DNA of 41,941 nucleotides. Origin: Pseudomonadota bacterium (GTDB lineage Bacteria > Pseudomonadota > Gammaproteobacteria > Steroidobacterales > Steroidobacteraceae). A program made the position numbers and the translations under genes. The stretch lies in NCBI GenBank assembly GCA_025355245.1, contig JANXZZ010000048.1, positions 1-41,941 on the forward strand. The letters run 5' to 3'. Positions 4,715-29,382 of the stretch are shown in pieces (position 1 is the first letter of the stretch; each line of letters opens with the position of its first letter). A model generated the notes under the pieces. That model ran no database searches, was not told the origin of the DNA, and saw nothing but the letters and a program-made list of their open reading frames with translations.

Positions 4715-5872
4715 TCAGTTCCTCCCGAGCGCAGTGACAATGCGCAGCCTGAGCGCCGACCAGGCGGGAATCGCTCCGGTCACGAGGCCGAGCAACACGG
4801 CAAGCCCGATGCCCGCAGCGAATACCGGTGCCGTGACGACGACTCCCGGAATGAACGCCTCGATCTTGCTGCGGGCGAGCGTGAGGATCGCGGCCGCCCC
4901 GCCGAGTCCGAGCAAGGCGCCTGTCAGCGCGAGCAGCAGCGACTCGGCGATCACCTGCATCGAAATTGTCCGGCCGGTGAAGCCGAGCGCCTTCAGCACG
5001 CCGATCTCGCGGGTCCGCTCGCGCACCGCCATGACCATCGTGTTGCCGACGATCAGCAGGATCGCTGCAAAGGCAGTGCTGACCACCAGCGTGATGATCA
5101 GCGCAATGTTGCCGAGCTGGGCGACGAAGGCTTTGTTGAACGCCGCCGCCGTATCGGTGCTCGTTTCGTACGGAGAGTTCGCGAACATCCCGTCGATCTT
5201 TTTCTCGATCGATTCGTTGAGCGACGCCGAGGTGGTCGTGAACACGATCATGCTGGTCGTGTCGCGCGCGAAGGTCACCGTCTCGTCGAAGAACTTGTGG
5301 CTCATCAGCACCAGGCTTTCGCGGTTCGGATCGTCGGGGGCGCTGAAGATCACGGAGACGTCGAATTCCCAGACGTGCGAGCCGTCGGCGCGCGAAAAGA
5401 TATTGGACGAGATCGGAATGTGATCGCCCACCTTCCAGCCATACTTCGCGGCGACGGTACGGCCGACCGCGACCCCGACGCGGTTTTTGACCCAGGCGTC
5501 GCGCTGCGCGTCCGGCATCTGCATCTTTGGATAGACGTCCAGCCAGGACTGCGGATCGACCGCGAACATGATGATGACGTTGCGCGGATCCTGGTAGTAG
5601 CCGCCGAACCAGGATTGCGAGGTCGCGCGCACGACTCCCTGGACCTGCTGGATCCGGTCGACGTAGCTGATCGGCAGCGGCACGGTGAAGTTGATCTTGT
5701 TCACCGTCACCAGCCGGTCGGCCGCCGCAGAGTTCTCACCGGCATTGAAGCCGTGCAGGAACGCCTCCAGTGCCGCGAACATCAGGAAGGCGATGAAAAT
5801 CGCCACCAGCATCAGGATGGTCCGCAGCTTGCGCCGACCGAGGTTCTTGGCGACCAGCACCGCGTGGTTCAT
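4715..5872 (-). CDS. ABC transporter permease, FtsX/MacB family (first permease)
   Basis: 385 residues. An N-terminal membrane helix at about 17-40 is followed by a periplasmic domain, then three C-terminal helices with the usual FtsX spacing. The segment RERTREIGVLKALGF, just before the last helices, is the cytoplasmic coupling motif typical of FtsX-like permeases. Its ATG overlaps the stop of the ATPase gene (ATGA, 5869-5872), indicating translational coupling. With the other permease it would form the membrane part of a MacB/LolCDE-like exporter. No substrate is evident. Confidence 0.88.
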   Translation of the reverse strand: MNHAVLVAKNLGRRKLRTILMLVAIFIAFLMFAALEAFLHGFNAGENSAAADRLVTVNKINFTVPLPISYVDRIQQVQGVVRATSQSWFGGYYQDPRNVIIMFAVDPQSWLDVYPKMQMPDAQRDAWVKNRVGVAVGRTVAAKYGWKVGDHIPISSNIFSRADGSHVWEFDVSVIFSAPDDPNRESLVLMSHKFFDETVTFARDTTSMIVFTTTSASLNESIEKKIDGMFANSPYETSTDTAAAFNKAFVAQLGNIALIITLVVSTAFAAILLIVGNTMVMAVRERTREIGVLKALGFTGRTISMQVIAESLLLALTGALLGLGGAAAILTLARSKIEAFIPGVVVTAPVFAAGIGLAVLLGLVTGAIPAWSALRLRIVTALGRN

Positions 5873-28177: not shown

Positions 28178-28708
28178 GTGATCAAGATCCTCGGCCTTTC
28201 CGGCAGCCTGCGCGCCGCCTCGCTGAACTCGATGCTGCTGCGCGCGGCCGCACGGCTTGCGCCGCCGGGTGTCGCGCTCGTCGTGTTCGACGGCCTCGGT
28301 CGCCTGCCGCTCTTCAACGTCGACCTCGAGGCAGACGAGCCCAAGCCCGTCGCGGCGCTGCGAGCAGCGCTCAACGCCGCCGCGGCCGTCGTCATTGCGA
28401 GTCCCGAATACGCGCACGGCGTCAGCGGGGTCATGAAGAACGCGCTCGACTGGATGGTCGGCAACGAGTCCTTCGTCGCGAAGCCGGTCGCACTCTGGAA
28501 CGCATCCCCGCGCGCGACACTCGCGCAGGCGGCGCTGCGCGAGACGCTGTCGACGATGTCGACGATCGTGGTCGGCGACGCTTGCGTCGCGATCCCGCTG
28601 CTTGGCGCGCGTTGCGACGAGGAGTCGATCGTGCGGGACGCGGTGGTGTCGGCTACGCTGGCGCGCGCGCTCGAGCGCCTCGGTGCCGCGGCGACGACGC
28701 TGCGCTAG
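28178..28708 (+). CDS. NADPH-dependent FMN reductase family protein
   Basis: 176 residues from GTG 28178. Flavodoxin-like fold with the FMN phosphate loop GLSGSLRAASLN at about 6-17 and the flavin-contact segment SPEYAHGVSGVMKNALDW at about 74-91, both diagnostic of the FMN_red family (ArsH, ChrR, SsuE and azoreductase relatives). It probably reduces flavin, quinones or similar acceptors with NADPH. Its stop shares the bases CTAG with the stop of the converging small gene. Physiological substrate unknown. Confidence 0.87.
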   Translation: MIKILGLSGSLRAASLNSMLLRAAARLAPPGVALVVFDGLGRLPLFNVDLEADEPKPVAALRAALNAAAAVVIASPEYAHGVSGVMKNALDWMVGNESFVAKPVALWNASPRATLAQAALRETLSTMSTIVVGDACVAIPLLGARCDEESIVRDAVVSATLARALERLGAAATTLR

Positions 28709-28917
28709 GGGGAGGCCGTGCCGCGCGAGCCTGCGGGCGGTGGCGCGCGGCGCGGCGTCGGCGCCCCGGGATCCGGATCCGCCACGCGCACGCGCGCGTC
28801 ATTGAAGAGCACGACGATCGGGCAGCCGAGCAGGTAGAGCCCCGTGCCATTGGCGGTGGCCTCCTCGACGAAACGCGCTTCGGCCCGCGCGCGCACGCGG
28901 ATGCTTTCACGCGACAC
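28705..28917 (-). CDS. Small unknown protein downstream of a cobalamin riboswitch
   Basis: 70 residues from GTG 28917, with GGGAG nine bases upstream. I do not recognise it. The N-terminal part is charged (SRESIRVRARAEARFVEE), the middle is hydrophobic (LYLLGCPIVVLF), and the tail is Pro/Arg-rich. About 86% of codons end in G or C, like the neighbouring true genes, and the frame abuts the FMN reductase stop exactly. These points support coding, though in DNA this GC-rich they are not proof. It is the only plausible reading frame on this strand after the cobalamin riboswitch at 29156-29347, about 240 bases upstream. Confidence 0.5.
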   Translation of the reverse strand: MSRESIRVRARAEARFVEEATANGTGLYLLGCPIVVLFNDARVRVADPDPGAPTPRRAPPPAGSRGTASP

Positions 28918-29076
28918 GTGGGTCTGCTCCCGGGGCGAGCGGCCCGACGCTCGGTCGTGGCGCCCGCAAACACTGAATCTGAAGGTACGTTATGGATCGG
29001 TGACGCGCGGTCATTGTCCACTCCCGGTGTCCGGACGCGTGCTCTTGACGCCGACGGATCGTGCGGGAGGGGCGGA

Positions 29077-29092
29077 CAGCACGGGCGTGCTG
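29077..29092 (-). other. Perfect hairpin between riboswitch and small ORF
   Basis: CAGCACG / CGTGCTG with a two-base centre, read on the minus strand 64 bases after the riboswitch ends. A C-rich run follows instead of a T-run, so it is not a standard intrinsic terminator. It could be part of the expression platform. Confidence 0.35.
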
Positions 29093-29155
29093 GGCAGCGA
29101 CGCGACACTGTGACGAACCGCCAGCGACCGCCCACCGCGATCAATCGGGCTACCT

Positions 29156-29347
29156 GCGTCGGGCTGGTTTCCGGGCTCTGGAGTGGCCCGGAGATGCTCC
29201 GGACCGGCACGACACCTTCCCAAGTCGACGACCGACTCGGTGGTTCCACGTCGTGCTCAACACTCCACTACCGTTGCGGGGGCAGCGCCGGGCTGGTACC
29301 GGCTTCCCAATTCTCCGGGCCGTGGTGAGCGGCCCGACACCTGACGC
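29156..29347 (-). promoter_or_regulatory. Cobalamin (B12) riboswitch
   Basis: Read on the minus strand, the 192-nt element has the landmarks of the classical cobalamin aptamer in order. The closing stem is GCGTC (29343-29347) with GACGC (29156-29160). Next come CAGGTG and a stem GGGCCG/CGGCCC. The core follows as GGGAAGCCGGT and GCTGCCCCCGCAACGG (about 29271-29309), then a variable arm containing GGGAAGGTG. The B12 box AGAGCCCGGAAACCAGCCCG lies at 29160-29179. Length is normal for the class. A promoter sits directly before it. Classical targets are B12 uptake or synthesis genes or B12-independent isozymes, none of which follow here. Confidence 0.88.
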
Positions 29348-29353
29348 CGTCGA

Positions 29354-29382
29354 ACTATAGTCGGCGCGCATGCGCGGCGCAA
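29354..29382 (-). promoter_or_regulatory. Predicted sigma-70 promoter of the cobalamin riboswitch transcript
   Basis: On the minus strand TTGCGC (29377-29382), 17-bp spacer, TATAGT (29354-29359). The -10 matches five of six positions, the -35 three of six. Transcription would start a few bases before the first riboswitch stem, which is the expected place. Confidence 0.5.

Follow-up and report, generated by a model that had tools for sequence, protein, structure and literature searches.

In an uncultured proteobacterial genus, a cobalamin (B12) riboswitch is apparently not a leftover but the control element of a small protein that had not been described before. It lies on the minus strand of the window, i.e. 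the whole stretch of 41,941 nucleotides that was analysed. We consider it likely that the riboswitch belongs to a self-contained, B12-repressed unit that comprises a promoter, a cobalamin riboswitch of class-I type, a short relay reading frame (ORF1) and a coupled frame of 70 residues (ORF2). The riboswitch in front of a gene serves as a clue to the gene's role, and here the switch points to an ORF2 family without a meaningful database match. An interpretation made previously from the letters of the window had offered three options, namely a new B12-regulated protein, a switch orphaned by gene loss, or a free-standing regulatory RNA; it is partly supported by the results, and the first option is the best supported one.

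RF00174 was the single Rfam family at or above its gathering score when the entire window was searched with cmscan. The match (29145-29359, minus strand) scores 89.1 bits against a cut-off of 31.5 (E 7.4e-21) and spans model positions 1-189, which is the full length of the model. Its alignment contains the closing stem, the GGGAAGCCGGT core, CCCCCGCAAC and the B12 box, so that the complete aptamer claimed by the sequence-only reading is confirmed. With 215 nt the aptamer fills the model including the long side arm, unlike the class IIb variant of Mycobacterium tuberculosis (Mtb) ppe2, which lacks a P8-P12 extension. In an alignment of aptamer and leader from nine sequences, 27 of the 76 predicted pairs show a change on both sides with pairing kept in at least one sequence, which indicates that the helices are maintained by compensatory change among the relatives. 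Aptamers above the cut-off also occur in congeners. On these comparisons the cobalamin riboswitch in the window is real, and it would be expected to bind B12. The genome to which the window belongs is a draft of 4.04 Mb in 348 contigs (87% complete), and all genomes compared are drafts. It contains two cobalamin riboswitches, the other of which precedes a TonB-receptor-like ORF (by eye). The earlier remark that no B12 gene is present holds for the ORFs between 24 and 34 kb, judged by eye, and for the nearest neighbours as scanned with Pfam.

At the 5' edge of the aptamer a promoter-like sequence is found (29354-29382, minus strand), composed of a −35 element TTGCGC and a −10 element TATAGT with 17 nt between them. 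The sequence previously proposed as a promoter is present; it is weak by consensus and absent from the output of the consensus promoter scan. The TANNNT box is kept in all nine copies of the arrangement (cassettes) and in three related, Rieske-linked riboswitches, with T1, A2 and T6 as invariant alignment columns, and a −35 TTG at 17-nt spacing occurs in six of the nine cassettes. As Rfam's general model for RF00174 itself begins with uauaau and the row starts were set by this model, the box is regarded as a habit of the RNA family and nothing special to this lineage. It could serve as the promoter of the unit.

Directly after the aptamer all nine cassettes carry an almost invariant hairpin, GATCGC-GGTGG-GCGRTC. 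In the window (29126-29142, minus strand) it reads GATCGC-GGTGG-GCGGTC, with a predicted stem and a G-rich loop, and GATCGCGGTGGGCGRTCGC is found in nine of nine. The hairpin had been noticed earlier, and it is P13-like. Inspected by eye, pairing of its loop with the C-rich loop CCCCCG of the aptamer seems possible if a mismatch or bulge is allowed. In characterised corrinoid riboswitches the loop of P13/L13 is reported to form a kissing contact with L5 and to pass on the binding of the ligand (PMC10653944, PMC9600662). A GGNGGG motif shortly after the aptamer was also present in 21 of the 32 other riboswitches sampled. Further downstream, a C-rich stretch (29064-29073, minus strand) is a candidate anti-Shine-Dalgarno sequence for ORF1. 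Duplex folding finds a complement in all nine cassettes, but its pairing does not exceed that in dinucleotide shuffles (z −1.87 to 0.97), so the candidate is a weak one. For this reason a masking of the Shine-Dalgarno sequence of ORF1 is proposed from known translational B12 switches. No terminator was found for the cassette in a pattern scan.

The 240 bases between the aptamer and ORF2, which had been taken as a leader, are not empty. They contain ORF1 (28907-29014, minus strand; 35 codons and a stop), which was missed by the sequence-only reading and which is preceded by the Shine-Dalgarno sequence GGGAGTG (29019-29025, minus strand). In every one of the nine cassettes GGGAGTG is followed after 3-4 bases by ATG and by an in-frame TGA inside RTGTCGCGTGA, and this junction also holds the ATG or GTG of ORF2. 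In the window the start codon of ORF2 and the stop codon of ORF1 overlap within GTGTCGCGTGA (28907-28917, minus strand). An upstream ORF with its own Shine-Dalgarno sequence therefore lies between aptamer and target, with its stop overlapping the target's start, in nine of nine genomes. If GGGAGTG, 2-4 nt and ATG are required within 260 nt, the motif occurs in all nine cassettes and in two of the three Rieske-linked relatives; the junction occurs in nine of nine cassettes but in none of the 260-nt regions behind 35 other riboswitches. Neither start motif nor junction was found in the 32 non-lineage riboswitches sampled. Upstream of ORF2 itself GGAG- or GGGAG-like stretches are seen in several genomes and none is obvious in others (by eye, unscored).

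ORF1 varies between 19 and 40 codons across the nine genomes. Its lengths (60, 60, 66, 75, 75, 90, 93, 108 and 123 nt) give seven distinct values, all of them multiples of three, and no internal stop is present. The chance of such frame retention is 9e-7 if the genomes are treated as independent, which overstates the case, and is nearer to 1e-4 to 1e-3 if distinct lengths alone are considered. The residues, except for the end, vary among the nine genomes (by eye). In two pairs of equal length the inner differences were distributed as 9/8/7 and 9/13/12 over the codon positions, so no sign of coding constraint is seen there. The frame is thus kept in all genomes but its residues appear unconstrained, which suggests that translation through ORF1 matters and that its product apparently does not. 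ORF1 is most likely the direct target of the riboswitch.

ORF2 (28705-28917, minus strand; 70 amino acids, GTG start, beginning MSRE) lies where the sequence-only reading had placed it, and it shares its last four bases with the end of a convergent gene of the FMN_red family. Within clades the pN/pS ratio of codons 5-42 is 0.50 (G000-G011, G000 being the window's genome), 0.51 (G001-G010), 0.73 (G001-G012), 0.28 (G010-G012) and 0.21 (G005-G006), while the other 23, more distant pairs give 0.59-1.40, a range near saturation and uninformative. For three disjoint pairs chosen by hand (G000-G011, G005-G006 and G010-G012) the differences fall 23/16/56 on the three codon positions (95 in total), an excess at the third position with P 2.8e-7 against equal thirds. 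The tail showed no constraint in the three pairs counted for it. From these close comparisons ORF2 is a gene under purifying selection on codons 5-42. One copy (G008) is frame-broken and stops after 13 codons, and another (G012) is cut by the contig end. The break in G008 lies in a G-rich, repeated stretch, for which a real break and an assembly error are possible alike.

An AlphaFold2 model made with seven sequences predicts a helix (residues 3-22) and a beta hairpin, followed by a variable tail (pLDDT 69); the model of the G005 protein reaches a pLDDT of 75.8 and has one further helix. Foldseek searches with both models gave no match for one and 30 matches for the other (best E 5.2), and none of them is a solved fold that is alike. 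Seven of the nine members were compared with sequence collections: PDB sequences (best E 0.78), NCBIfam (best E 0.046, one member) and PHROGs (best E 0.094, one member) gave nothing meaningful, and Pfam gave no match. PADLOC gave none either. Predicted pI values of the members lie between 5.5 and 11.5, and charge is therefore no trait of the family. A kinship between ORF2 and the 91-residue ORF X behind the riboswitch of G016 was considered and rejected (hhalign probability 0.2%).

Riboswitch, ORF1 and ORF2 start occur together in nine of the 15 genomes of the genus, i.e. in the window's genome, G001, G003, G005, G006, G008, G010, G011 and G012, so the pair of riboswitch and small ORF recurs in close genomes. 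A second switch in G002, G004 and G013 precedes btuF-like genes, and G007, G009 and G014 have just the switch linked to a TonB-receptor-like gene (both by eye). A midpoint-rooted tree of NrdJ and BtuC separates the clade of G002, G004 and G013 from the twelve other genomes, of which nine have the cassette and one three-genome clade (G007, G009, G014) is without it; presence and absence amount to two changes. The cassette stands beside a cupredoxin and an FMN reductase in the window and G011, beside RidA-like and SDR-like genes in G001 and G010 (by eye; the short G012 contig retains the RidA-like ORF), and beside an FghA-like gene in G005 and G006 (by eye), which is farther off in G008. At least three different gene neighbourhoods are thus present, and the cassette is kept while its neighbours change.

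A search of 60 relatives with the 70-residue protein as single query returned, besides itself, two homologues (G011 and G001), both directly behind RF00174 matches. A profile was then calculated from seven proteins, leaving out the broken G008 and the truncated G012 copies. Among 217 genomes of the family it reached E <= 0.05 in 44, which are the nine cassette genomes (G008 as a partial match, 8e-4) and 35 weaker ones; in the order, 14 of 296 genomes reached E <= 0.01. Scanning 13 profile loci with cmscan showed a riboswitch at the G008 locus alone; the ten genomes from outside the genus that reached E <= 0.01 in either search were all included and have none there. A pattern search for the 70-residue ORF over the genome contigs led to 591 matches, none of which was confirmed. 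The DNA pattern of Shine-Dalgarno sequence, start and junction, whose gap limit misses members with a long ORF1, was found at five loci in the GTDB collection (84,980 genomes), apparently those of G012, G010, G001, G006 and G005. In the searches made the ORF2 family appears to be restricted to one genus.

The proposed mechanism is as follows. With ample B12, ligand binding by the aptamer would stabilise the P13 hairpin, and initiation at the Shine-Dalgarno sequence of ORF1 would cease. If B12 is scarce, ribosomes would translate ORF1, terminate at the TGA inside RTGTCGCGTGA, and might reinitiate at the overlapping ATG or GTG to make ORF2. The ORF2 protein may then act as a B12-scarcity factor, either an adaptor or a regulator, in bacteria which possess a B12-dependent RNR and have no detectable MetE. 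The model of the AdoCbl-dependent RNR matched in all 15 genomes of the genus, 14 of them above the cut-off and the window's genome in pieces broken by contig ends, and the MetE family PF01717 had no match in any of the 15. A B12-dependent RNR together with the absence of a PF01717 match makes a factor produced on B12 shortage plausible, the RNR scan covering the AdoCbl-dependent class alone. Several findings count against the unit: the overlap measures 11 nt and not the 4 nt (NUGA) of the precedent, the anti-Shine-Dalgarno pairing does not exceed that of shuffles, no terminator was found, the promoter-like box also opens Rfam's general model, ORF2 is broken in G008, the more distant ORF2 pairs are near saturation, the profile matches at E <= 0.01 outside the genus lack a riboswitch, and six of the 15 genomes are without the unit, with G007, G009 and G014 forming one clade inside an otherwise carrying group.

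The precedent, and the closest experimentally studied case we found, is ppe2 of Mtb. There a B12 switch is reported to act through the upstream ORF uPPE2, on whose translation expression of the target depends, and PPE2 to be made mainly by termination-reinitiation at an overlapping stop and start (Kipkorir et al. 2024, PMC11260477). Both systems have a B12 aptamer followed by a short ORF with its own Shine-Dalgarno sequence, and the stop codon of this ORF overlaps the start of the gene under control, so that on paper the cassette would work alike. The ppe2 system, as described in that report, differs in its class IIb-like aptamer without P8-P12, its 4-nt AUGA overlap and its target PPE2 with cobQ(U), whereas the cassette combines a full RF00174 aptamer with a long side arm, an 11-nt overlap and an unrelated small-protein target in an uncultured proteobacterial genus. 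Termination-reinitiation at overlapping genes is also reported from archaea and E. coli (PMC6728339). The Mbox riboswitch of Mtb pe20, compared by description alone, is similar in that it directly controls a conserved small upstream ORF of unclear role (rv1805A); it differs by sensing magnesium and by being followed by the pe20 operon (PMC12810186). Within the genus, the btuB-like and btuF-like riboswitches belong to the same RNA family, and 13 of 18 have the GGNGGG loop motif just after the aptamer, but they precede receptor- or transporter-like genes (by eye). Among the matches listed in the open-licence literature no riboswitch-uORF relay of this arrangement was found outside Mycobacterium; if the coupling holds, the present genus would add one more lineage.

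Other arrangements of the two frames were weighed against such a relay. A +1 frameshift at the GCG TGA junction would enter the frame of ORF2 and yield one fused product, and a minor frameshifted fusion has been reported for uPPE2-PPE2 of Mtb (PMC11260477). We nevertheless hold a fusion to be very unlikely here, for the residues of ORF1 look unconstrained over a length that changes from 19 to 40 codons, the ATG or GTG of ORF2 is kept in nine of nine genomes, and the tRNA decoding GCG should re-pair poorly on CGT. It is also highly improbable that ORF1 and ORF2 together serve as a leader that regulates the gene after them, e.g. an enzyme gene under coupling or attenuation. In G001 and G010 a short-chain-dehydrogenase-like gene (by eye) does follow on the same strand, about 71 and about 31 bases after ORF2, but elsewhere the next gene is convergent and differs between genomes, being of the FMN_red family in the window and G011 and FghA-like (by eye) in G005 and G006. 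The idea of a free-standing regulatory RNA is unsupported because two reading frames are conserved.

A hint towards the history of the switch arises from its nearest relatives. In a tree of 42 aptamer rows the nine cassettes group together with the switch of G016 as sister; long branches were flagged elsewhere in this tree. The pattern of the P13 region has 23 places in 217 genomes, i.e. the nine cassettes, G016 and 13 others, and cmscan detected a riboswitch in only one of the latter (G068), where it is followed by a Rieske gene. A search with the G068 Rieske protein led to 30 loci, and of the 20 scanned one more (G109) has a riboswitch. With 34 rows the aptamers of G068, G109 and G016 fall into a single clade together with those of the nine cassettes (support 100/99.8), and within it the nine are no longer recovered as a separate group (4% of bootstrap trees). 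The Rieske protein of G068 shows kinship to GbcA, a subunit of glycine betaine monooxygenase (NF058607, 473.6 bits, below the cut-off of 670), and that of G109 is 67% identical to the G068 protein. Both genes have the start GGGAGTG-NNC-ATG, as do most ORF1s. The switch of G016 (4846-5058, minus strand, L049) drives a 91-residue ORF whose TGA overlaps the Rieske start as ATGA; this locus is a second candidate for a relay from riboswitch to gene via a small ORF. At another Rieske oxygenase locus a marginal match to PYLIS_3 (pyrrolysine insertion, mttB) was seen (L189:3823-3919, plus strand; 39.9 bits against 38).

In the genus no Rieske gene was found behind a cassette switch; elsewhere in the genomes a homologue appears, at E 1e-60, only in the window's genome and G011 (39-40% identical). 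As the nearest riboswitch relatives drive a Rieske oxygenase gene in place of ORF1 and ORF2, and two of the three share the Shine-Dalgarno and start motif, the old Rieske target was probably replaced in this genus. We tentatively suggest, as a possibility short of a probable one, that the riboswitch outlived the Rieske gene, that aptamer, leader and start signal were retained, and that a lineage-specific small protein took the place of the enzyme by way of a sequence-free relay ORF. In that case a gene for a small protein would have arisen under a metabolite switch that was inherited, with both states present within one bacterial family. The loci also offer a comparative case for a change of riboswitch target, from a Rieske target via a small ORF plus Rieske target to a small-protein target.

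The same relatives could be read in two further ways. ORF2 might derive from the 5' end of the Rieske gene once located there, remodelled and retained as a mini-protein. By eye its 'LLG.PIVVL' resembles 'IGDYPVVVV' of the Rieske protein at a collinear place, which is also picked by hhalign, and Shine-Dalgarno sequence and start are common to ORF1 and two Rieske genes. The resemblance lacks significance, as 40 of 200 column shuffles reach its score; in semi-global profile comparison the scores do not differ from the mean of the shuffles (z about 0) and the reversed profile does better, and the seven members had no Pfam match; we regard such an origin as unlikely, and ORF2 as a Rieske remnant was rejected as unproven. 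Alternatively the riboswitch is a relic which lost its real target, a Rieske oxygenase, and the frames of the small ORFs in its decaying leader are open by chance. The Rieske genes behind the closest switches (G068, G109, G016), the broken ORF2 of G008, the clade without cassette and the unconstrained tail in the three pairs examined would fit. An ORF1 frame kept in nine of nine genomes, purifying selection on ORF2 and a conserved Shine-Dalgarno sequence and start/stop overlap are unexpected of chance frames, and we consider a present-day relic to be quite unlikely. The orphaned switch of the sequence-only reading is partly right as history, since the closest relatives precede Rieske genes absent here. 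A relic of btuB or btuF was rejected as well: two BtuF-like proteins (tblastn, E 1e-8) matched no cassette locus searched, and the cassette aptamers group apart from those of btuF and btuB. A decayed btuB-like gene without conservation of the small frame was looked for, and the loci instead gave the covariance match and the conserved frames described above.

Further riboswitches were seen beyond the genus. In another family of the order (L008, L013, L149) they precede a different protein of about 95 residues, for which the two copies scanned gave no Pfam match at the cut-off. Behind it a DUF1289-like ORF is located, and in L013 also a CobT-like ORF (by eye). In two other genera of the family (L052, L068) cobalamin riboswitches stand before ribonucleotide-reductase-like ORFs (by eye).

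A side observation concerns NrdJ itself. In five of the 15 genomes of the genus, namely G001, G005, G006, G011 and G000 (L130, L134, L135, L140 and L129/L144), the NPCG site of the protein is interrupted by an in-frame insert of 374-376 residues. The inserts begin with Cys and end with HN (three of them), GN (G011) or GQ (G000) before Cys-Gly. They are probably inteins of two divergent types.
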